A stretch of 34,367 nucleotides of DNA, from NCBI GenBank assembly GCA_027071355.1, contig JALSUJ010000241.1, positions 1-34,367 on the forward strand, read 5' to 3'. The stretch comes from Gammaproteobacteria bacterium (GTDB taxonomy: Bacteria > Pseudomonadota > Gammaproteobacteria > GRL18). Of this stretch, positions 4,599-33,385 are shown piece by piece (the stretch's first letter is position 1; each line of letters opens with the position of its first letter). A program made the translations under genes and the position numbers. The notes beneath the pieces are model-generated. The model made no database searches. It was not told where the DNA came from and worked only from the letters and a program-made list of their open reading frames with translations.

Positions 4599-6332
4599 TT
4601 ATTGGTTGATGTTATCTTGCGTGTTATCACTATTAGCCGGGCTGTAGCCTTTGTACTGCAAAACCTTTGGAACAAACCCTTTGACCGGATAGTTACTGCT
4701 GTTGAACGCGGCTAAAATACCCTTGATTGTCCCTTTAGCCAGTTTTGAGAAAGTGCCTTTTTCTTTCTGCTTGTCCAGCCAGGAATCAAACCCGGCTTCT
4801 TTGAGCAAGCCAATCATCCCTGTCTTGGTCTGACATTGAAGAAATTCATCATTAAGGGCGAAGTGGTTGATGTATTCAGGCTTTAATATCTCAACAAGAA
4901 AATCGACGCTTTTATCCGTTTGGGTCAGGTCAACATCATTCTGGCCGGTTGCCGCTATCACGCTCAGGCAGTAGGCACGAACCTCAGCACGTTGCGCCGG
5001 GGTGAGTTCGAGTAGTTTTTTCAGTGTTTTATCGCGTGATCCGACACTATGCCCAGTCACTTTAAACGGTAAATCAAAGTCAGCTTGTAACTGCTTAACG
5101 ATCTCTGTGCCGTAGTTCATGTGGGGTAATGACTCCAGTAATACCGCAATGTTAAGCGCCTCCAGTACCTTTTTATTTGTAACCAGATCATGCCCAACCA
5201 ATGCCTTAATTAACCGGGTCTTATACTCAATAACTTTCTTTGGTGGGGTATTATCGGCTTTAGCTGGTCGAGGTGTTTTTGCCGCCCCTGGCTGCTTTGT
5301 GTCTGCAACCGGCGATTTTCTTTCCTTTTTTGATGCAGGAGGCATTGTTTTTTTCTTATAACAATCACTGTCAAAGCAAACACCTTCATCAACCTGGCCG
5401 ATGGTTTCGCGGCGAGTGCTAATCAATGCGCCAAGATTCGCACACTGTTGACATTGTTTATATTGGGTTTTGCCAACCTTGCTTTCCAGTAAATAATTAT
5501 AACTGTCCGATGTTTTTTCAATATCAAGAAAACAAACATTGTAATCTTCCTGTTTGGTATGCTTGATGTACTCTAATGCGGTCTTTTCTTTTTCTTCATA
5601 ACAGACTGGATTAGTACAACAACCTGCCCCGATATTTTCTTCAAATAGACTCGACTGTTGTGACGTATTATGCTGACATCCATTGCATTTATTTGTATCA
5701 AATATTGCTGTATCCAGTCGGTAGGCAAATTGACTCAGCTTTTCTTTTAGTTCTGCCACCGTGACATTTTTGTTCTTGATTGAAGTTACCGCGTTCTTTT
5801 GATTGATTTCAGTCAGGCTGGAAATTAACTCTGCATGGCCAATATTAATGTCCCCCTGCATTAATGCCTGACGCGCCTCATCACACAGGTTTAACAACAA
5901 CAGACGCTTATTCAGCTTTGATTGCGTCCAGGACAACACGGACGCTGCTGCCTGGCGATCCCCGTCGGAAACTGTTAGTGCATTTTGCGCCGCAAAGGAT
6001 TCCTCAATCGGTGACATATCTTCCCGATTTAAGTTTTCTTCTGCCGAGATTCGGATTGCAGCCTTATCATCCATTGTCTTTATACTACAAGGAATACTTT
6101 CCAAACCGGCAATCTGTGATGCCCGCCAACGCCGCTCCCCCGCCACAATCTCATAGGCATCATTATCAAGAGGTCTGACAACAATCGGCTGGATCAAATC
6201 ATCTTGTTGAATACTTTGTGCTAATTCGTTCAAAGCCTGTTCATCGAAGTATTTGCGAGGATTGTACCGACTCGGTTTAATCGCATTGATACTCAGACGT
6301 TGCACATTTTCATGTTCGGTGTTTTGCTTCAT
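4599..6332 (-). CDS. parB: PRTRC system ParB family protein
   Basis: A 577-residue ParB-type protein, first in the PRTRC operon. The N-terminal ParB/sulfiredoxin-like domain (about residues 12-115) has the GERRWRA box (about 65-71) and ENLNREDM (about 99-106), followed by a helix-turn-helix region to about 200. Then comes a cysteine-rich segment (CNGCQ, CC, CYEE, CQQC, CFDSDC, about 215-330) probably binding zinc, a Pro/Lys/Ala-rich linker and a long helical C-terminus. It is much longer than chromosomal ParB, as usual in this family. AAGGAG lies five bases before the start. The likely role is centromere binding or partition of the element. Confidence 0.9.
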   Translation of the reverse strand: MKQNTEHENVQRLSINAIKPSRYNPRKYFDEQALNELAQSIQQDDLIQPIVVRPLDNDAYEIVAGERRWRASQIAGLESIPCSIKTMDDKAAIRISAEENLNREDMSPIEESFAAQNALTVSDGDRQAAASVLSWTQSKLNKRLLLLNLCDEARQALMQGDINIGHAELISSLTEINQKNAVTSIKNKNVTVAELKEKLSQFAYRLDTAIFDTNKCNGCQHNTSQQSSLFEENIGAGCCTNPVCYEEKEKTALEYIKHTKQEDYNVCFLDIEKTSDSYNYLLESKVGKTQYKQCQQCANLGALISTRRETIGQVDEGVCFDSDCYKKKTMPPASKKERKSPVADTKQPGAAKTPRPAKADNTPPKKVIEYKTRLIKALVGHDLVTNKKVLEALNIAVLLESLPHMNYGTEIVKQLQADFDLPFKVTGHSVGSRDKTLKKLLELTPAQRAEVRAYCLSVIAATGQNDVDLTQTDKSVDFLVEILKPEYINHFALNDEFLQCQTKTGMIGLLKEAGFDSWLDKQKEKGTFSKLAKGTIKGILAAFNSSNYPVKGFVPKVLQYKGYSPANSDNTQDNINQ

Positions 6333-12567: not shown

Positions 12568-14115
12568 TTAGTGAACTGGTTGTAATGATAGGATACCGAC
12601 ATTGACACCGGTTCCTGATTCAAGAAACTGACCAGGAGGAACGTCCTCCCAAACATGCTTCCAGCCATCAACAACCGTTTTCCCTTTAAATGAACCAGGA
12701 ACAATGGCAACGATCTTGCCTTTACTGCTAAGCATGGCCGCTGCTTTTTTTAAATGTTCCATACATCTGCCATTTGAAAAAGGTGGATTTAGAACAATCT
12801 TATCGAACTTTTCCGTTTCATCCATCTTAATGAAGTCCTCCAGTCTCACCGTAAACCCTTTGCTCTTTAAGACACGGGCATGCAGGCGCGCAATGTCCAC
12901 ACACAAGGTTTGCTCTTTCGGTAAGAAATCAGCGATTCGACCCAGACCGGCACTGGGTTCAAGCACCCGGTCTTCGTCCTGGATTTCAGCCATATCCACC
13001 ACCTGTTTCGCCAGTCCCTCCGGGGTTTGGTAAAACTGATGGCTTTTAACTTCCGGCACCTGTCCCGAACGGATAATTTCATCAATTACCTCACGTATCG
13101 GATAATCAAAGCTCCATATTCCTTTTGTTATCTGCCGACCGTTAAGTCGTTCAAATAACGCAATGGTTTGTGGCTCTGCTTTCACTGGTTCATAAAAACA
13201 GGTTTCAGTGCCCCGTTCAAAACGGATATCTGACAGAATCTCAATAACATTCGCTGGCAACAATTCCATTTCAATCGGATGCTGCTTATAACGCACCGGT
13301 TTTTGTCGGAATGTCGCAGGAATAGCCATCGGGTATAACTGGGCCAGCACCTGGTTTAATCGATAAGCCATCATCGGATGACATTCTATATGAGCGGTAC
13401 CGCACTTAAAGACCTTCACCTTCCAGGCACCACCATCCATAATCTGCCATTTACCCTGTAAGCCTAAGTCAAACAGCCGCTCTAGTGAACGGCGCGTTAT
13501 ATAATGACCAGGAACCTCCCTGCCCATGAATTTTCCAATGACAACGCGAAAATCATGGATAACATCAGCCATATTAACATTTAGACTATGCCTGTCATCG
13601 AACACATAATTAATAATCATGCGCTTGCTAAAGCCTTCCGGGCGATTGGTAACATGCTCTCGCGATAGATTTTGAAAAATGCCATCAATTCTTTTTGCAA
13701 AGAATTCTGCTCTTTTCATAAGCAAATCATTTATCGTTGCATGAACCGTTTCGCGCTCAAACGCGGGGGTTTTGTGATTACTGATTTGTTCGCGCCATTC
13801 ACCACGCTCTTTGGCCGGCATGGCTTCAAGCACGTCGGTTAATGAAATGGCTTTGGACCAAAAATCGGCATCCAACGCTGCTTTGGCATTCTCAAAATTA
13901 AAAAATGTCGAAACCGTATAACAGCCAGTCCGGTGATTGATATATGCACCATCAAAAAAATACTGCATCACACTTGTTTTGGCTGCATTAACGTAATCCG
14001 TGATTTCGGTGATTTGTTCTAACGCTTGCTGGTATTGACCAAACAACGCCTCAAGCGGCGATGAAATAGCAATATCGGTACTCCCTTCAAAAGGGTGTTT
14101 TATTTCTTTTTTCAT
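12568..14115 (-). CDS. DUF4942 DNA methyltransferase
   Basis: A 515-residue protein. The N-terminal half matches DUF4942 proteins of plasmids and conjugative elements. The C-terminal half is a class I SAM methyltransferase with LEPSAGLGR (about 385-393) as motif I and LNPPF (about 442-446) as the NPPF catalytic motif, typical of N6-adenine or N4-cytosine methylases. Start 14115 is chosen for GGAGATAACAT just upstream; an in-frame ATG at 14151 lies inside the leader RNA. It follows leader L1. The likely role is to methylate element DNA against host restriction (inference). Confidence 0.85.
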   Translation of the reverse strand: MKKEIKHPFEGSTDIAISSPLEALFGQYQQALEQITEITDYVNAAKTSVMQYFFDGAYINHRTGCYTVSTFFNFENAKAALDADFWSKAISLTDVLEAMPAKERGEWREQISNHKTPAFERETVHATINDLLMKRAEFFAKRIDGIFQNLSREHVTNRPEGFSKRMIINYVFDDRHSLNVNMADVIHDFRVVIGKFMGREVPGHYITRRSLERLFDLGLQGKWQIMDGGAWKVKVFKCGTAHIECHPMMAYRLNQVLAQLYPMAIPATFRQKPVRYKQHPIEMELLPANVIEILSDIRFERGTETCFYEPVKAEPQTIALFERLNGRQITKGIWSFDYPIREVIDEIIRSGQVPEVKSHQFYQTPEGLAKQVVDMAEIQDEDRVLEPSAGLGRIADFLPKEQTLCVDIARLHARVLKSKGFTVRLEDFIKMDETEKFDKIVLNPPFSNGRCMEHLKKAAAMLSSKGKIVAIVPGSFKGKTVVDGWKHVWEDVPPGQFLESGTGVNVGILSLQPVH

Positions 14116-14232
14116 TATGTTATCTCCACATAAACGGAGACAATACCCCACCGGGAAGTTGTCCCCGATGGGTTTAAAAATACCTGGTTATCAGGTGATT
14201 AATGCTGTTTGTTTAACGTGGACAGTGACCAC
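14116..14232 (-). promoter_or_regulatory. Structured leader L1 (radC-type) of the DUF4942 gene
   Basis: 5' to 3' on the minus strand: hairpin GTGG/CCAC, ACAGCATTAA, hairpin CACCTG/CAGGT, then the switch core. S1 pairs CCCATCGGG with CCCGGTGGG. S2 pairs CGGGGACAA with TTGTCTCCG. S3 pairs TTGTCTCC with the Shine-Dalgarno region GGAGATAA. S2 competes with S1 and S3. Confidence 0.75.
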
Positions 14233-14501: not shown

Positions 14502-14954
14502 CTATATTAATCCGTTTTCTACAAATGAGTAGATTTCATCACCCACAATCATGTGGTCCATGACGCGTACATCAATAAGATCCATCGCATCGACTAGACG
14601 TTTTGTAATGGCCTTATCGGCCCGACTTGGCTCACAATCACCCGATGGGTGGTTATGCGCACATATGATAGCGGCTGCATTATGCTTTAATGCCGCTCTC
14701 ACTACCTCCCTGGAATAAATGGCTGCACCGTTGATGCTGCCGTAGAATAATTCATCATAGCAAATAATCTTATGATGATTATCCATAAAAATGCATGAAA
14801 AAACTTCCTTTTTTTCATTTCTTAGTTTTAATTTCAGATACTTCTTTGTATCATCGCTTGATTTTAATGGATCTTCTTTTATACCTACTTCAAGAAGGCC
14901 TATTGCATAGGTTATTATTTCTTCTTTGGTTGCGTATTCTATTAAATCACTCAT
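14502..14954 (-). CDS. radC: RadC-family JAB domain protein
   Basis: A 150-residue RadC/MPN(+) domain. The metal-binding motif AHNHPSGDCEPSRAD gives His100, His102 and Asp113, with an upstream REVVRAAL helix. It lacks the N-terminal HhH region of chromosomal RadC, as is common for mobile-element copies often annotated YeeS/RadC. Start 14954 follows TTGGAGATAAAA; the longer frame to 15035 reads through the leader. Leader L2 precedes it. The biochemical role of RadC is unresolved; element-borne copies sit with anti-restriction genes. Confidence 0.9.
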   Translation of the reverse strand: MSDLIEYATKEEIITYAIGLLEVGIKEDPLKSSDDTKKYLKLKLRNEKKEVFSCIFMDNHHKIICYDELFYGSINGAAIYSREVVRAALKHNAAAIICAHNHPSGDCEPSRADKAITKRLVDAMDLIDVRVMDHMIVGDEIYSFVENGLI

Positions 14955-15100
14955 TTTTATCTCCAAAAATAAAGCGGAGATGAACCCAACAGGGTTCGAT
15001 CCCCGCCGGGTTGGTTTAGTAATACCGTGTATCAAACACGGTGGTTAATGCTGCTTGTTTTGCGTAGCCAGTTACTACGTTTAAAAGTCTCAATGAGACT
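14955..15100 (-). promoter_or_regulatory. Structured leader L2 of radC
   Basis: Minus strand order: hairpin GTCTCATTGAGAC, hairpin CGTAG-TAACTGG-CTACG, GCAGCATTAA, hairpin CACCGTG/CACGGT, then the core. S1 pairs AACCCGGCGGGG with CCCTGTTGGGTT. S2 pairs GCGGGGAT with ATCTCCGC. S3 pairs ATCTCC with the Shine-Dalgarno GGAGAT. The gene association fits the published radC RNA motif. Confidence 0.8.
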
Positions 15101-19783: not shown

Positions 19784-20257
19784 TTAAAGTTTCTGATAAA
19801 GATCATCAAGTAGTATTTCGGTACCGGTGACCGTCAGATGACTAATGTAGGCCTTGTCAGCCTCATCACCCCTGCGTTTCACCGTAACCGGTTCTGGTGC
19901 ATCAACATCATCAAGAATATCAAAATCAATGAGGATGCACTGCAGCCCTTCCAGTGACGGGTCATTAGTCACAACACCGTGAGGCATTCCATCGCTCATT
20001 AGCACTGAAAGTAGAGGTTGAGGCTGATTTGTAACCAGGTATTTCTCAACATCCGACCATTCCCAATCATCTTCCATTTCTAAAACTTGCTCCTTGACTA
20101 CTGTTTGATGATAAGTCGCTAACGAATTTGCTGTGTCACGAACAGACTCTTCCGATGTGCTATTGTCTGAACCTTCATCAAATGATGTGATATAGCTATC
20201 ATTTAGATAAAGCCCAATAGAGGAACCAATAACGACCAAATTAACAATCGGTTTCAT
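19784..20257 (-). CDS. Unknown acidic protein coupled to ATPase 1
   Basis: A 157-residue protein beginning MKPIVNLVVIGSSIGLYLND, overlapping the ATPase gene by 17 bases and so translationally coupled. It is very acidic (MEDDWEWSDVEKYL, DFDILDDVDAPE). It may work with the ATPase; no family recognised. Confidence 0.65.
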   Translation of the reverse strand: MKPIVNLVVIGSSIGLYLNDSYITSFDEGSDNSTSEESVRDTANSLATYHQTVVKEQVLEMEDDWEWSDVEKYLVTNQPQPLLSVLMSDGMPHGVVTNDPSLEGLQCILIDFDILDDVDAPEPVTVKRRGDEADKAYISHLTVTGTEILLDDLYQKL

Positions 20258-21914
20258 TGTGATCCTCCTGATTCTCTTCGACCATCAGTTTGCCTTCGTG
20301 AATCGTTATGATATAACGCCCATCCAGGTCATTTAGCAGAATATCTTTTTTCTCTAACTGCTGTTCTAGCACGGTTGCCGAACTCACCCCTCGATGTAAC
20401 TGAATAAAGTTTGCAAAAGCGCTCTCCTCTTGATCTTTAAGATAGAGATTGACATCGCCTTCTTCATCATCATAAAAATCACACAACTGGCTCACTACCC
20501 CGCCATCATTCACATCGCGAGGAATATAGATGACATGGTTCGTTTCAGATAGATCTTTCAACGCCACGCCAGTATTATTGATTATTTTTACATAATTACC
20601 CAGTGTCAGTTTTACATTTTCGCAAAAGACAACAGTTGCCTCAACAACCTGTCCCTGAAAGAACGCCGATTGCGTCACACCAACGGGTATGGCTGAAGAA
20701 GGCAATTCACTGATGGTTTGCACATAAGGCAGCGCCCAATGCTCTCTATCCAGGAAGTGATCCTCAATAAAACGCCAGTTCGGATTCCCGTACATCATCA
20801 ACCAGCCTATCGCTGTCTCTTCCGTGAAGTTTTCCTGCTTAAACAGTTGGACGGTACCCTCTTTTAACTCCTGATGGGTAATTAACCGTCCTATTCCCTT
20901 GCCAGTTGATAAGAAAGGTTGTGCGGGGCATTCGTCCACATCCCGGTAAGGCTGTGAGGCAACCCACCGCATTGCAATCAGGGGTAGATACGTTAACCGG
21001 TTATAAATATGATACAAATGCATATCAATAATCGTACTTCTTATCTGATGATCATTGATATCCTCACCTGCAGCCAGGCGGGCATTGATATCATTCTCCC
21101 AAAGCATCGATAAAACGCTCTTGATCTCGTTGATCACATGATCCTGATCGACCAGTTTATCCCGATCCGGAAGCCGGGCTTGATACCGCGATGCATCCAG
21201 GTGGATGATAATCGGGGTATCTGCAGCTGTATTTTTATACACCAGTAATCCCTGCAAATAGACACGCATTTGTATGCCATATGTGAATGGTCCTTCATCA
21301 CTTAGCCCAGGAATCAACATTTGACCCATGGTTGTCTCTTCGTAAGAAGACAGCTGATCCAAAGCGTGATCCCGGTTAAATATCTCTCCATTGAGTGAGA
21401 CCGTTAATGGAAAGCCTCGGGCGTAATGTCTTAATGCCCGCTGAATACCAACCGTAAAGGTTGGATCCTGATCGGGAATCGAGACATTATTCATCCGAAT
21501 CAATGTCCCGGTACGACGCTCAGTTCGCGTGACCGTCACCTCTTTAAAAGCCAGAACATCCTGACAATTAAAGGTAAGACAACGACCACCGCTTTCAATG
21601 ACCATTGACTCACAATTAAATAACAAGGATAAGAAACCCAGCCCAAACGGGGTTTCTTTCTCGATGATATCCGCCGGCCAACCACTGCTGGCCACCTTTA
21701 ACAGGTCTTCCATATCCCCAATACCGTTGCCGTTATCCTCAATTTGAAGATACCGATTGTCTTCGGAAGGATGGGTGCTAAAACGTACCTCGGTTGCGCC
21801 AGAACGTCTGGCGTTTTGCATGGCTTCCGCCAAAAAGCCGGTTGTCTCGGTAAAGGCAAACGGCAATGATTGGACCAACTGCTTTCCGTTGATCGAAAGT
21901 TTGATTTTATTCAT
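20241..21914 (-). CDS. GHKL ATPase 1
   Basis: A 557-residue protein with an N-terminal GHKL (Hsp90/MutL/histidine kinase type) ATP-binding domain. The N box is EAMQNARRSGATEV (about residues 29-42), the G1 box IEDNGNGIGDMED (about 63-75), and ETPFGLGFLS (about 92-101) forms the ATP lid. A second MutL-like region follows (YLQGLLVYKN, LPDRDKLV) and the rest is unknown. Start 21914 follows GGAGATATTCC under leader L8. It is a paralogue of the gene at 23814. Such stand-alone ATPases occur on plasmids; the role is unknown. Confidence 0.8.
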   Translation of the reverse strand: MNKIKLSINGKQLVQSLPFAFTETTGFLAEAMQNARRSGATEVRFSTHPSEDNRYLQIEDNGNGIGDMEDLLKVASSGWPADIIEKETPFGLGFLSLLFNCESMVIESGGRCLTFNCQDVLAFKEVTVTRTERRTGTLIRMNNVSIPDQDPTFTVGIQRALRHYARGFPLTVSLNGEIFNRDHALDQLSSYEETTMGQMLIPGLSDEGPFTYGIQMRVYLQGLLVYKNTAADTPIIIHLDASRYQARLPDRDKLVDQDHVINEIKSVLSMLWENDINARLAAGEDINDHQIRSTIIDMHLYHIYNRLTYLPLIAMRWVASQPYRDVDECPAQPFLSTGKGIGRLITHQELKEGTVQLFKQENFTEETAIGWLMMYGNPNWRFIEDHFLDREHWALPYVQTISELPSSAIPVGVTQSAFFQGQVVEATVVFCENVKLTLGNYVKIINNTGVALKDLSETNHVIYIPRDVNDGGVVSQLCDFYDDEEGDVNLYLKDQEESAFANFIQLHRGVSSATVLEQQLEKKDILLNDLDGRYIITIHEGKLMVEENQEDHNETDC

Positions 21915-22053
21915 GGAATATCTCCAAAAAAATGGGGACATTCTCCCCGATGGGAAGTGTCCCCATCGGGTTTAAGTTACCTGGTTTTTACCAGGTGATT
22001 AATGCTGCTTGTTTAGCGTAGCCAGTAACTACGTTTTAAAGTCTCAATGAGAC
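21915..22053 (-). promoter_or_regulatory. Structured leader L8 of ATPase 1
   Basis: Hairpins GTCTCATTGAGAC and CGTAG/CTACG, GCAGCATTAA, hairpin CACCTGGT/ACCAGGT, then the core: S1 CCCGATGGG with CCCATCGGG, S2 TGGGGACA with TGTCCCCA followed by seven T, S3 AATGTCCCC with the Shine-Dalgarno GGAGATATT (one mismatch). Confidence 0.8.
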
Positions 22054-22161: not shown

Positions 22162-23814
22162 TTAAAGTGCCTTAACGGTAATTTTATCGCCGTTGATCGA
22201 CACAGTGTAATCACCGGTAAGCTTTTCAAACCTGCCTGGTGACAAGTTGTTTAACATCGCCAATAAAATATTAGCTGGATCCTTGCCGCGTTCAATAGCC
22301 GCAAACTGGTTAAATAAGATTTCTTCACGATCCCTTGCATCCTCATTAACCTCTTCGTTGTTAGTGAAGTAGTTTAACTGCCTGACAACTTCCCCTGGCG
22401 ATTGATCCTTTACGGGAAGATAGATTGTATTATCATCATCCCATCTAGTACCACAATCAAAACCCATGGCTTCATCATCAATAATGGCAACCAGGTCTCC
22501 GTATTGAATTTGATAGCTATCACAGAAAATAACCTCCGCATTCACCCAGTCACCACAATACATTGACTTGACTGCTTTCACCGCCGTTATCGTTGGTGTC
22601 ACTGCAGCAAAGTCCTTGATGTAAGCTTGGGCCCAGTGATTTCTATCGAGTTGAGTCCGATCGATAATGTAGTCACCGCGTGCTTTCATCAACATATAAA
22701 GCGGGATGTTTGATGCTTGAATAGGCTCTTCGTTAACAAGAACCGTCCGTCCCTGTTCAACTTCTTCCTGATAAACAGGTATCGTTGCTTGTAGGAGATA
22801 ATTAAAATTATCGTAATAATCCAGAACGGGGTATTCATTCTCATCAACATAGCTTAAACAAGCCGGCGGCAGTGCGGGGATATCATTCAACATGGCTTCT
22901 AAGTCGAAATATTTAACCGTATCGAACCATTCGTCTATCAGTTTATATCCCTGGTCGGTCTTTTTCAGTTCCATGAAATAACGACGCCAGTGATTAACCA
23001 CTGCCTGGTAGACCGGCTTAATGACCTCTCCTTCATTAATCAATTTATCCCTGTCCGGCAAGCGGGCAGTAAATAAGGTCGAATCCAGGTGGATAATGTT
23101 CCGATTGGCAAGATTCCCGCGTTCGGATTGATAGACAGGTAAGCCTTGCAAATACACCTTCAGGTTTTGTGAGCGGTGCCCGTCAGTGTTCATCCCGGGC
23201 ATGCCCGAAACGCAAAGAGACCCAATCCCCGGTTCCTTCTCAAAATGCAAAGTCCCATTTAGCGCATGCGGTCTGTCCATCTCCTTACCGTTATAAAAAA
23301 TGCTGACCGGAAAACCTTCTACCATCCTGTTAATATTGTATTCAACATAATGGCTTTTCCCCTGGCGTGTTTCCGGCACTTTAAAGCCAACCAGTTCAAT
23401 GATCGTGCCCGGTTGGCTATTTCTTGCCGGAACAACCTTCTCACGACTACCCGCAAGAAGGGCTTTCGTGTTGAAGTCAAGATATTTGCCGTTTGACTCA
23501 ACGCAGATCACATCACTGCTGTAAATAGCGGATAACCAACCTAAGCCAAACGGGTTTTCCTGCAGGGTTGTCTCATCATCCCACCCCGATTCTGCCAGGG
23601 TGAGTAACTTCTGCATATCATCAATCCCGCAACCATCATCAATGATCGTTAAACGGTCCTTTTCTTCTTCATACCACAGTTCAATATGTGTGGCTTTTGC
23701 CCGTCGGGCATTTTGCAGCGCTTCAGATATTACTGTTGTGCTGTTTGAGAAGGCGTGTCGCATATTTTGTAGCATACCTTCTTTGTTTATTTTAATAGCA
23801 ACTGATGTTGTCAT
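22162..23814 (-). CDS. GHKL ATPase 2
   Basis: A 550-residue paralogue of the gene at 21914. N box EALQNARRAKATHIEL (about residues 31-46), G1 box IIDDGCGIDDMQK (about 56-68), lid ENPFGLGWLSAIY (about 86-98), then KVYLQGLPVYQS and RLPDRDKLI shared with ATPase 1. Start 23814 is chosen for AGAGGAAAAAGTG upstream; a 44-codon in-frame extension overlaps the leader and the previous gene and is not preferred. It carries no S1/S2/S3 leader, so the two ATPases may be differently regulated. Confidence 0.8.
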   Translation of the reverse strand: MTTSVAIKINKEGMLQNMRHAFSNSTTVISEALQNARRAKATHIELWYEEEKDRLTIIDDGCGIDDMQKLLTLAESGWDDETTLQENPFGLGWLSAIYSSDVICVESNGKYLDFNTKALLAGSREKVVPARNSQPGTIIELVGFKVPETRQGKSHYVEYNINRMVEGFPVSIFYNGKEMDRPHALNGTLHFEKEPGIGSLCVSGMPGMNTDGHRSQNLKVYLQGLPVYQSERGNLANRNIIHLDSTLFTARLPDRDKLINEGEVIKPVYQAVVNHWRRYFMELKKTDQGYKLIDEWFDTVKYFDLEAMLNDIPALPPACLSYVDENEYPVLDYYDNFNYLLQATIPVYQEEVEQGRTVLVNEEPIQASNIPLYMLMKARGDYIIDRTQLDRNHWAQAYIKDFAAVTPTITAVKAVKSMYCGDWVNAEVIFCDSYQIQYGDLVAIIDDEAMGFDCGTRWDDDNTIYLPVKDQSPGEVVRQLNYFTNNEEVNEDARDREEILFNQFAAIERGKDPANILLAMLNNLSPGRFEKLTGDYTVSINGDKITVKAL

Positions 23815-23885
23815 CACTTTTTCCTCTAGTAAGTAAGGCAACCTTTGGGTTGCCTTACGTTGAATAAATATGAAACCACTAATAA
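23815..23885 (-). promoter_or_regulatory. Simple hairpin before ATPase 2
   Basis: GTAAGGCAACC and GGTTGCCTTAC (23833-23858) form a perfect 11-bp stem with a four-base loop, ending 9 bases or so before the Shine-Dalgarno site. It may be an attenuator, RNA stabiliser or weak terminator of the upstream pair. Confidence 0.6.
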
Positions 23886-24197
23886 TCAGCAATTTCGTTT
23901 GACAGGACGATCTTCGCCTGTTGGTTGAAAAAATGAGGCTAACCACTTCCAGTTATAGGCTGGGAAAACAGTTAGCTCACTTTCTTTTTTTACAAAACAA
24001 GGTGGTTCGCCATCAATGATGGCGATGGCTGATGCAAATTTCTTTGTATCTTCTTTATCGAGATAGGCTACAAATCTGTATTTATCCAGATAGGCCACAT
24101 CCATTTTGCTGTGGTTTGTTATCTTTTTTAAAATCCCTATATCGACTAGAAGATGTACAGGGACTTCTGTTTTTTCTTGAACGACGTTATATCTCAT
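23886..24197 (-). CDS. Unknown protein under leader L9
   Basis: A 103-residue protein beginning MRYNVVQEKTEVPVHLLVDI with GGAG upstream. The duplicated-looking YLDKYRFVAYLDKEDTKKF is notable. It overlaps the stop of the small membrane protein by 11 bases. No family recognised. Confidence 0.65.
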   Translation of the reverse strand: MRYNVVQEKTEVPVHLLVDIGILKKITNHSKMDVAYLDKYRFVAYLDKEDTKKFASAIAIIDGEPPCFVKKESELTVFPAYNWKWLASFFQPTGEDRPVKRNC

Positions 24198-28833: not shown

Positions 28834-29070
28834 TTATTCGTTGGTCTGTTTTTTCCTTGTCAAGGGGTGTTTGATGGTGGCCGGTTGGTATCTACCATAC
28901 GGGTTACCTTGTTTCTTCTTTTTTGTTTTGTGCTGAACCAGTTTTCCTTTACGAACCATGCTGTTATGGATTTCCAATGTGATTCTGTCGCGCCCAACAG
29001 CATCAACGGATATTTTTACTCCGTTGCCAAAATCGATAGATTGTCCTTTTTTTCTTGTTAGCGTTAACAT
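28834..29070 (-). CDS. CsrA-like RNA-binding protein, copy 2
   Basis: A 78-residue protein whose first 40 residues, MLTLTRKKGQSIDFGNGVKI then SVDAVGRDRITLEIHNS, follow the CsrA pattern (MLxLTRxxGxxxxIG...). A lysine-rich tail (KTKKKKQGNPYGRYQPATIK) replaces the usual C-terminus. It overlaps the first copy by seven bases. CsrA proteins bind GGA in hairpin loops near ribosome-binding sites. Key C-terminal residues of CsrA are missing here, so activity may need the partner. Confidence 0.7.
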   Translation of the reverse strand: MLTLTRKKGQSIDFGNGVKISVDAVGRDRITLEIHNSMVRKGKLVQHKTKKKKQGNPYGRYQPATIKHPLTRKKQTNE

Positions 29071-29845: not shown

Positions 29846-29999
29846 TCAGCCTGATAGCCAGCATGGCCCATTTTAGATACGCTTCCAGCCTTTGCTGATA
29901 ATCACGACCTGGTGGACGTTGATTGGTTTTTTGCGCTATTGATCTTTCGAGGCCGATTATCTTTTTTCTTAGCTCCAGGTTCCTTCTGATCACGACCAT
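29832..29999 (-). CDS. Possible small basic helical protein
   Basis: A 55-residue ORF: MVVIRRNLELRKKIIGLERS then IAQKTNQRPPGRDYQQRLEA and YLKWAMLAIRLIN. It looks like a charged amphipathic helix pair. It overlaps the tail of the plus-strand regulator by 14 bases. The Shine-Dalgarno site is weak. Confidence 0.35.
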   Translation of the reverse strand: MVVIRRNLELRKKIIGLERSIAQKTNQRPPGRDYQQRLEAYLKWAMLAIRLINND

Positions 30000-30030: not shown

Positions 30031-31419
30031 GACAGGCCAAACAGGGGTAGATCGCTGTATGGCATTCGATTTCTGTATCGACAAGTGCTTCACTGGCGGC
30101 GATTTGATGTACCCATTCAGTATCCAAAACGCGCACAGAAGATTCCAGAACTGCTAACAAGACAGGAGGTAAAACGAATTATTGATGCCTGTGATAATCA
30201 AAAATATCGAACCATGTTGCTCACCTGCTATGGGTGTGGATTACGCGTCAGTGAGTTAGTCGCCTTAAAAGTTCATCATATCGATGGTGAACGCAAACTG
30301 CTACGTGTTGAGCAGGGTAAAGGCGCCAAAGATAGAGCCGTTGTTTTACCGTTGACCTTATTGACGGCATTACGTCAGTACTGGCAGCGATACCACCCCA
30401 AATACTGGCTGTTTCCTAATAGCAACACGCCTAAATGCCACTTGAGTATTACCAGCGTACAGAAAATATTCAAACAGGCAAAAACGAAAACCGGGATACA
30501 GAAAGTCGGCGGTATCCACAGCCTGCGCCATGCCTATGCCACCCACCAGCTGGAAAATGGCCTGGCGATTCATAAACTACAGCAACAACTGGGTCATACC
30601 AACCTGCAATCGACCTTATGTTACGTCCATTGGGTTCCGGGTTATCTACAGGGTAATACTATTTTTAGTGATCTGCTGCAGCAACTGGGCATGAGCGCCA
30701 TCCTGCATACCTGGGGACAGACGCTTGACCAGCATGTCCATCTACACTGCCTGATCCCTGGCGGGGTCATCAATACCCAGCAAGGCTACACCCGCACACA
30801 ACGCGCCTATTTATATCCCGAACGTGTCTTATCACGGCTGTTTCGGGGAAAAATGGTCAGCGCCCTGCGTCAGGCAGCCAAAGACGGCAAACTATCACGC
30901 ATTACCCGTCCCGGCGACATAGACGATACCCTCAATGCCGTGATGAAAAAAGACTGGGTTATCCATACCAAAGCACACATTAAAAAACCGGATACCGTCA
31001 TTGCCTATCTGGGACGATACACTTGTCGCACCGCCATCAGCCTGTCACGTATTATGGATGTGGATGATAAAAGTATCTGGTTTAAGTATAAAGACTATCG
31101 CGATGATAAGAAAAAAGTCATGCAACTGGCAGGCACCGAGTTCCTGCGCCGCTTTTTGTTACACATCCTGCCCAAAGGCTTTATGCGAGTTCGCCATTAT
31201 GGCTACCTGGCCAACCGGGTGCGGGTAGAGAAAATCAAACAGATACGTCAGAGCCTTGAGGTAGAACAAGTGGAAAAGCCGGAAGCTAAAAACTCAGCGG
31301 GTGAATACAGCCGCCACAATGAAACGGAAAAACCCTGCCCCGGCTGCAAAGCGGGTTACCTGCATCTGATTGGACTGATCCCGTCAGAAAAAGAGCGACG
31401 ACAGATGCTGACTGTTTAG
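30031..31419 (+). mobile_element. IS91-type remnant: tyrosine recombinase fused to IS91 transposase
   Basis: A single 444-residue frame from ATG 30085, open back to 30031 without a start. Residues 1-185 are the catalytic part of an IS91-associated tyrosine recombinase, with R54 (GLRVSEL), H145-R148 (HSLRHA), H171 (LGHTN) and Y180 (CYVHW). From about 195 the IS91 transposase follows, with HUH motif HVHLH (217-221) and YLGRY (308-312) as the two-tyrosine motif, ending with CPGC and CKAG. The N-termini of both proteins are missing, so a deletion fused the two genes in frame. The upstream end is also truncated. 31420-31678 holds no gene. Confidence 0.8.
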
Positions 31420-31678
31420 AAACAAGACGACGGATACAGAAATCATCAGGCATTTACTGGTTGCCAAAAAGCCGGTAACGGGTTTATCATGTCCATATAA
31501 AAATAATCGGCCTGAAACAGTGAATAGCACTGGCCTGATGGCTAAAAAACAGGTAATAGATAGCATGGAAATAAGAAAAAACAACGGAAAATACCCGGCA
31601 ACCCACTTAAGCCCTATAGCCGATTAAAAACAATTTCCATATATAGAGTGTGCCTGACCGGCATAGTCCAACAGACAT

Positions 31679-32026
31679 TTATACGCCATACTTCGCACAG
31701 TGTATAAATGCTAAGATGTTATGACTTCCTGAGAAATAGCGTCCGTACTCACCTTTACTGGTATACTCACCTTTACTGGTAAAGGAATAAAGCTGATTTC
31801 CAATATCCCGTATACGTCTGTCCTGGTGATTTATCAACGTTTCGGAGATGATATCAATGGTCAATGCGTTTTTATGAATATCCCATTGCTCTTTTAAGGT
31901 CTTACGAAGCTGTTGCTCCTGTAGATCGGACAATGGCGTGTGTTGCGCGGCCATAGCTGAAATCAAGCCAACCAGAGCATCAGACACATCTTCTGGCAGT
32001 TCTTTGCTTCTATTGATATCAATCAT
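31679..32026 (-). pseudogene. VirB4/TraC fragment
   Basis: A 115-residue ORF containing LPEDVSDALVGLISAMAAQH and RRIRDIGNQLYSFTSKGEY then YGRYFSG, the pattern of a central part of TraC/VirB4 conjugation ATPases. The Walker motifs are absent, and the last residues (HNILAFIHCAKYGV) are probably junction-derived. It is a broken piece of a conjugation gene. Confidence 0.6.
31746..31781. repeat. 18-bp tandem duplication in the TraC fragment
   Basis: TACTCACCTTTACTGGTA occurs twice in a row, giving a duplicated TSKGEY hexapeptide. It keeps the frame. Confidence 0.95.
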
Positions 32027-32027
32027 A

Positions 32028-32261
32028 TTAATTCGTCTTTGTTGTTAACAAGCGATTGCCGATCACATCTTTCACCCTTACCTTGTCGCCTGATGTGATT
32101 GAATCCTCGCAAATAATATTCCAGTGAACTACTCCCGCTAAATCAAAGATTCTAACGTGAGCTTCCTGTGACCCATCATCGCGTTGAGCGATAACCTCTC
32201 GTACCACACCTGCGCTGACAGGTATTATGGCAGGGAACGACTTTACACAGACACAGGGCAT
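32028..32261 (-). CDS. OB-fold (NfeD-like) fragment
   Basis: A 77-residue ORF: SAGVVREVIAQRDDGSQEAH then VRIFDLAG and DSITSGDKVRVKDVIGNRLL. The G-D-K-V-R-V-K-D-V-x-G ending resembles the OB domain of NfeD-type proteins. The first 15 or so codons overlap the end of tnpB, so the true start was lost when IS605 inserted. It ends one base before the TraC fragment start (TAATATG). Confidence 0.45.
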   Translation of the reverse strand: MPCVCVKSFPAIIPVSAGVVREVIAQRDDGSQEAHVRIFDLAGVVHWNIICEDSITSGDKVRVKDVIGNRLLTTKTN

Positions 32262-33385
32262 TCGCCCATTTTTCCAGATGCCTCAGCTAACGCAAAGCGC
32301 TTGATATTATTCGCGGCCAGCACATCACGATCCCAGGTCTGATGACAAACCGGACAAGTCCAGATTCGATCATCCAGCGTAAGATCATGGTTGATATGAC
32401 CACATTCACATTGCTTACTACTGGGGGCAAATCGATCACAATAGATTGTATTTTTGCCTGACCATTGCGCTTTATACTTCACAAAAGTCAGAAATCGCCC
32501 CCAGGAAACATCCGAGATATGCCGTGACAACTTCCGGTTCCTGATCATCCCTTTCACATGCAAATCTTCAAAGGCTAATGTTACAGCTTGGTTATCGCGC
32601 ACTAGCCAGGATGAAGTTTGATGCAAAAAGTTGTTTCGATGACAGGATACTTTCAAATGTTGTCGGGCAACCCGGTTTTTTTGAATTTGGTAGTTTTGAC
32701 TGCCTTTCTGACAACGAGACAGTTTTTTCTGTTCAATGCGTAGTCGAGGCAGGGCTTGATTCAAAAAGCGAGGGTTGTCTGTCTTGTCACCATTATCTTG
32801 AATCATGAAATGTTTCAGCCCTAAATCTATACCAATAGTCTTATCAGCCTGTATCGGCGGTGGCACAGGTAATGTGTCAGGCGTTTCAACAAGCACAGAC
32901 AAAGTGTATTGACCGGCTGGATTTCGTTTTAGCGTGCAGGTTTTGATTTCACCGTCAAATGTACGGTGTAATTTGGCTTTTATCCATCCAATCTTGGGTA
33001 GTTGAATACATTCATTATCAAAATCCACTTTGACGTTCTGGGGCATTTGGTAGGACTGCCAACTATTTTTACGACTTTTGTATCGGGGGTATTGGGCATT
33101 GCCTCTGAAGAAATTCTGATAGGCGACGTGAACGTGTTCTAACGCTGATAGTATGGATTGACTGTAGATTGTATTAAGCCAGGCAAACTCCGGCGTTTTC
33201 TTCAAGGCGACAAACTGATCTTGTACTGCTCGTTTACTGATACCTTTGCCGTATTGCTCGTAATACCGGACGCGCATGGATAATGCAGTGTTGTAGATAA
33301 ACCGTACTGTTCCGAAGTGCTGAGCGATACGCTCTGACTGAATAACATCGGGGTAGATACGGTATTTATAGCCTTTTTGTATCAT
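32243..33385 (-). CDS. tnpB: IS605-family TnpB nuclease
   Basis: A 380-residue RNA-guided nuclease of the IS200/IS605 type. Helix-turn-helix start MIQKGYKYRIYPDVIQSERI; RuvC Asp in IGIDLGLKHF, Glu in LAFEDLHVKG, final Asp in TWDRDVLAANNI; four-Cys zinc finger CECG and CPVC. All catalytic residues are present, so it may be active. It is divergent to tnpA. The guide RNA would be expected from its 3' end past 32243 into the flank. Confidence 0.9.
   Translation of the reverse strand: MIQKGYKYRIYPDVIQSERIAQHFGTVRFIYNTALSMRVRYYEQYGKGISKRAVQDQFVALKKTPEFAWLNTIYSQSILSALEHVHVAYQNFFRGNAQYPRYKSRKNSWQSYQMPQNVKVDFDNECIQLPKIGWIKAKLHRTFDGEIKTCTLKRNPAGQYTLSVLVETPDTLPVPPPIQADKTIGIDLGLKHFMIQDNGDKTDNPRFLNQALPRLRIEQKKLSRCQKGSQNYQIQKNRVARQHLKVSCHRNNFLHQTSSWLVRDNQAVTLAFEDLHVKGMIRNRKLSRHISDVSWGRFLTFVKYKAQWSGKNTIYCDRFAPSSKQCECGHINHDLTLDDRIWTCPVCHQTWDRDVLAANNIKRFALAEASGKMGECPVSV
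32256..32267. repeat. Element-end hairpin near tnpB
   Basis: GGGCATTCGCCC is a four-base stem at the end of tnpB, a candidate right-end hairpin of the IS605-type element. Confidence 0.4.

Follow-up and report, generated by a model that had tools for sequence, protein, structure and literature searches.

A shared reading frame of tyrosine recombinase and IS91-family transposase remnants in a gammaproteobacterial genome

Introduction

Does an open reading frame that holds the catalytic residues of both a tyrosine recombinase and an IS91-family HUH transposase encode an enzyme with two DNA-cutting chemistries, or does it preserve the remains of two genes? We addressed this question for a locus near the end of a 34,367-nucleotide stretch of DNA from a member of the Gammaproteobacteria (contig JALSUJ010000241.1 of assembly GCA_027071355.1), referred to here as the window. 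A sequence-only reading had described the frame as an in-frame gene fusion; we compared it with intact relatives, structure models and genome, plasmid and viral sequence collections.

The shared reading frame

The fused ORF spans 30085-31419 on the + strand, as do all features of the element given below; it has 444 codons with the stop at 31417-31419, and the frame is open from 30031. In the translation of the frame, GTG 30085 is the start of the longest ORF (444 aa). Alignment with intact integrases shows that this GTG corresponds to a conserved valine inside those proteins; the earliest in-frame ATG is residue 44. Judged by its sequence, the fused ORF is without a native start and begins in the middle of the integrase domain. 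Promoter-like sites at the ORF showed no excess over shuffled sequence. Neither stops nor frameshifts interrupt the 444-codon frame, and every named catalytic residue is preserved, which implies that either the deletion described below is recent or the frame is constrained.

The first half of the product is the C-terminal part of a tyrosine recombinase catalytic domain (30085-30687), recognised by Pfam (Phage_integrase, PF00589, aa 24-182, E 2.4e-34), by relatives and by structures. It carries the catalytic residues R54, KGAK, H145, R148, H171 and Y180 (R-K-H-R-H-Y), and is 56-60% identical to the intact integrases of Thiodictyon elements and of an element in a genome labelled G268. The nearest solved structures are XerA (4a8e, E 4e-29) and IntI4 (2a3v, E 9e-25). 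The second half (30682-31419) is an IS91-family Y2 (HUH) transposase that begins at residue ~135 and runs to a C-terminus which was natural and complete in alignment to intact transposases. The Pfam domain Y2_Tnp (PF04986) covers aa 202-379 (E 2.2e-57), and the NCBIfam IS91 transposase profile NF033538 was matched only at positions 133-355 of 356 (E 2.4e-72). The HUH motif HVHLH lies at 30733-30747 (aa 217-221; H217/H219/H221), and the paired tyrosines Y308/Y312 are encoded at 31006 and 31018. In IS91 itself the tyrosines are Y249/Y253 (PMC5714925). The Pfam and NCBIfam matches and the residues R54...Y180 and H217...Y312 bear out the sequence-only reading in that a recombinase and an IS91 transposase do share one frame, each with its catalytic set.

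Truncation of both halves

Integrase homology begins upstream of any start codon, with bases encoding SLYGIRFLYRQ (30049-30084). Tblastn and alignment with intact integrases place the 5' truncation point near 30049, with about the first ~67 of the 282-299 residues lost; the N-terminal core-binding domain of the recombinase is therefore absent. When the missing N-termini of integrase and transposase were sought across the window, only chance matches were found. The non-coding stretch just 5' of the truncated integrase (29862-29984) is 75% identical to G000:C571:3-125.

On the transposase side, the deletion takes reference residues 1-~134, including C34, C46, C59, C64, C67, F93, T94 and P96. In the family alignment 22 columns are invariant; the window protein keeps 12 of them and has lost the other 10. 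The intact G268 transposase was modelled with AlphaFold2 (21 sequences; mean pLDDT 89), the alignments for structure models being built without rows from plasmid records. This model contains a strand at 88-94, helices at 97-127, a strand at 137-145 and a strand at 151-160 with HVHLH, followed by the tyrosine helix. The HUH relaxases TrwC and TraI topped its Foldseek list of PDB structures, with modest TM-scores of about 0.25-0.4. Since the junction falls at about residue 135, the deletion has taken the opening strand and helix of the HUH core as well as the zinc-binding region. On this model, the HUH nuclease fold is incomplete in the window protein, and the N-terminal zinc-binding cysteines are gone from its sequence. 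Both N-terminal domains are missing, as had been noticed from the sequence, but the loss reaches further, into the HUH core itself (strand 1 and helix 1). A model of the 444-aa protein itself had a mean pLDDT of 48, which is weak evidence because its alignment held transposase rows only and the integrase half was unaligned.

Two-gene relatives and the origin of the frame

A tblastn search of plasmid sequences gave at least 314 records with one place covering >=80% of the query among the 5000 best matches, and the top records are annotated as two genes, a site-specific integrase followed by an IS91 family transposase. Named elements among the plasmid matches listed include ISAzo26 (Aromatoleum) and ISMno24 (Methylobacterium). 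Plasmid copies from Candidatus Thiodictyon and Thiothrix have gene overlaps of 8-13 bases, and their two genes are about 49-57% identical to the halves in the window. The element in G268 also ranks among the nearest relatives of the window ORF (60% and 50%).

The deletion junction lies at 30676-30690, where integrase ...DLLQQL runs into transposase QLGM.... Against all intact relatives examined, integrase homology stops at query aa ~200 and transposase homology resumes at aa 200. The two homology blocks are separated in the relatives by ~420 bp of DNA that is absent from the window copy, namely the integrase tail, the stop and the first ~135 transposase residues. The loci fetched contained 32 integrase/transposase pairs: the genes were in different frames in 22, in the same frame with a stop between them in eight, and fused in two. 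Among the nearest relatives, the genes overlap briefly and are read in different frames; in G268 the overlap is ATGA. With this arrangement in the nearest relatives, the deletion probably created the shared frame and did not keep one, contrary to the earlier view that joining the genes had preserved the frame. Most likely, to go by the gene layout of the relatives, the two frames were brought together by the deletion and no common frame existed before it.

Two full-length single-frame fusions occur in other genomes. The first (G268:C6:49870-51867; L075/L137) is a single frame of 666 aa with all domains kept. Its G-run, which directly precedes the ATGA gene overlap, has four Gs against five in five unfused sister copies, and the stop before the overlap is thereby lost; either mutation or an error in reading the homopolymer could account for the difference. 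The second (G080:C35:21289-23418; L046) encodes 710 aa, again with all domains, and is without the stop found in relatives of the same-frame type. Neither fusion recurs, each being a singleton in its family, which indicates that fusion of these neighbouring genes is easy and sporadic and bears no sign of selection. The DNA to the left of the fused copy in G268 belongs to a ~140-bp repeat found in dozens of places, often in tandem (e.g. C2:573462-574150).

Two copies of the element in G268 (C6:212447-213368 and C6:227936-228849) have internal deletions while retaining the right end. A nearly identical large internal deletion is present in both, and together they seem to represent a non-autonomous derivative spread by movement or duplication. 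In the genome of the window, contig C177 has an integrase N-terminus with a right end close behind it, and is thus an internal deletion derivative. Together, the derivatives in G268 and C177 make internal deletion a common fate in this IS91 group.

The right end of the element

Downstream of the ORF, the element continues in a 3' non-coding tail (31420-31658), recognised by similarity to contig C384 of the same genome, and a right end with a conserved stem-loop, the presumed origin end (31659-31721), recognised by near-identical ends in other genomes. Positions 31416-31721 are 86% identical to G000:C384:1-306 over 306 bp. Contig C384 begins at the transposase stop of another copy, and this start, with 86% identity through the right end, implies that a related copy lies partly off the assembly. 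Two further right ends are present in the genome, at G000:C384:225-306 and G000:C177:5915-5979. The left (termination) end is not intact: comparison with the upstream parts of relatives gave no DNA similarity.

Matches to the right end (31659-31721) came from multi-copy elements of G268 and of a further genome, G263, and from single-copy elements of several other genera, Pseudomonas saliphila being one host. Its stem has 12 pairs; 92% of cells were paired, against <45% in slid controls, and five pairs were changed on both sides. Among integrase-carrying IS91 elements of many genera the stem-loop is almost letter-identical, with compensatory changes, and it had no match in Rfam. GTT is present at this end of the window copy, as it is at almost every right end whose hairpin is intact. 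A GTT at the element end fits an IS91-like target, and the final bases of the right end, GTTA, are the probable target by sequence. An AACA within the right end could pair with the TGTT at its junction. A transposase acting in trans may still be able to use the right end that survives.

The right end also partly resembles an integron attC, with GTCCAAC as a left box and GTT at the right. The IS91-like element ISShvi3 is reported to adjoin an attC site (PMC9229058). We considered the right end as an attC and did not accept it: although GTCCAAC conforms to RYYYAAC, the right box past GTT is flank-derived and variable.

Genomic neighbourhood

An intact-looking IS605-type TnpB gene (OrfB, with a Cas12f1-like TNB domain) lies on the minus strand at 32243-33385, 0.5 kb from the IS91 right end. 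On the other side of the element, 28834-29070 (-) encodes a small CsrA-like protein that matches only the first 34 CsrA profile positions and has an extra basic tail. Two adjacent large genes (20241-21941 and 22162-23946, both -) gave weak matches to Hsp90-like ATPases, and the same region includes ParB (4599-6332), RadC (14502-15035) and a DUF4942 methyltransferase (12568-14151); it is possibly plasmid or island DNA. The window opens with a CRISPR-like array (4-1065) of ~28-nt repeats (CCTTTACCCCCGCCTACACGGGGAACAC) every ~61 bases, with a gap at ~585-849 and two repeat variants, ACACGGGG and ACGCGGGG.

Distribution of the fusion

Within its own genome the window itself was the only full match. 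An intact or second coding copy was not found in the assembly, the next protein matches being local, ~30-42% identical and to other recombinases or transposases. No close fusion was present in 96 relatives (best matches <=57%), where the G080 frame was the sole single-frame one, and the nearest relatives of the window ORF overall are only ~57-60% identical. A DNA search of 369 genomes of the class gave partial matches and no full copy, and plasmid DNA (72,556 plasmid records) held no copy of the window fusion. A search of viral contigs, phages, plasmid DNA and GTDB contigs likewise gave no copy; it returned one 45% relative of the transposase (Pseudomonas saliphila), other matches being distant or short. 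We found no description of a recombinase-IS91 transposase fusion in the literature searched. Across these relatives, class genomes, plasmids and viral contigs, the fusion was thus found in this genome only, which is largely the outcome that the sequence-only reading had named as speaking against its proposal.

Discussion

We conclude that the window frame is very probably a decayed two-gene IS91-family element, in which a deletion joined gene remnants in one frame by chance. Its ancestor would have had a tyrosine recombinase gene followed, as is often the case with overlap, by a Y2/HUH transposase gene. Relative to intact elements, an internal deletion of ~420 bp has fused what remains of the integrase frame, at codon ~200, with residue ~135 of the transposase, probably by a slip between short similar sequences encoding QLG/GLG, and a second truncation has removed the 5' part of the integrase. 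By chance, one in three such deletions should give an open frame. The fused product would presumably either not be made, or fold into neither enzyme. The suggestion made from the sequence that the frame may be only a relic of genes joined by deletion agrees with the unfused two-gene relatives, the restriction to one genome and the truncated HUH core.

We also considered whether the fusion is an assembly artefact, in which two copies of a repeated element were joined in a fragmented genome (696 contigs). The genome is broken at such elements, as where the 3' tail of another copy marks the start of C384, and a second coding copy is not assembled. On either side of the junction, however, the protein aligns collinearly with single elements; the tail of the known second copy shows just 86% identity, and comparable internal deletions are seen in G268, whose assembly consists of 7 contigs only. 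We therefore regard an artefact as very unlikely.

Another proposal starts from the G-run at the gene overlap in G268: this IS91 subgroup might sometimes make a recombinase-transposase fusion through frameshifting or readthrough at the overlap, and the window copy would be a deleted descendant. If so, the tyrosine recombinase and the HUH transposase would act as one complex. We consider this a very slim prospect.

That the fused protein is a working bifunctional enzyme, with recombinase and HUH nuclease acting on the same element, appears from the sequences to be extremely improbable. Both catalytic sets are intact, the frame is open, and the two genes travel together in many relatives; yet the protein has lost the N-terminal domain of the recombinase together with the zinc domain and strand 1/helix 1 of the HUH core, the native start is missing and the fusion is a singleton. 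An enzyme with two DNA-cutting chemistries, as raised by the sequence-only reading, is therefore unsupported, given the truncated HUH core, the missing start and the lack of a second copy. Finally, although full-length single frames of the G268 and G080 type exist with all domains and the G268 element is a close relative, descent of the window ORF from such a fusion by in-frame deletion has hardly any likelihood, since a single G separates the fused G268 copy from its five unfused sisters, each fusion occurs just once in its family and 30 of the 32 gene pairs are unfused.

A decayed two-gene element thus remains our preferred explanation. Intact catalytic residues and an open frame are insufficient to claim a new enzyme; here it was the comparison with relatives and the fold check that exposed a deletion cutting into the HUH core. 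In addition, the covarying right-end hairpin and the occasional one-base fusions make the unexplained role of the tyrosine recombinase easier to test.

Compared with known systems, the window remnant most resembles IS91-family elements that have an upstream tyrosine-recombinase gene, with which it shares gene order, both domains, a natural transposase C-terminus and the right-end hairpin conserved in the nearest subgroup of two-gene elements. Those elements have two separate full-length genes, whereas the window copy is 5'-truncated and internally deleted, with its remnants in one frame. Like Xer/integron-type tyrosine recombinases such as XerA (4a8e) and IntI4 (2a3v), the window protein has the R-H-R-H-Y catalytic domain, but it is without their N-terminal core-binding domain and native C-terminal tail, and has a transposase fragment attached in place of that tail. 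Similarly, it has the HUH motif and two tyrosines four residues apart (Y308/Y312) of IS91/Y2 HUH transposases, but differs from them in having no zinc-binding domain and no strand 1 or helix 1 of the nuclease core.
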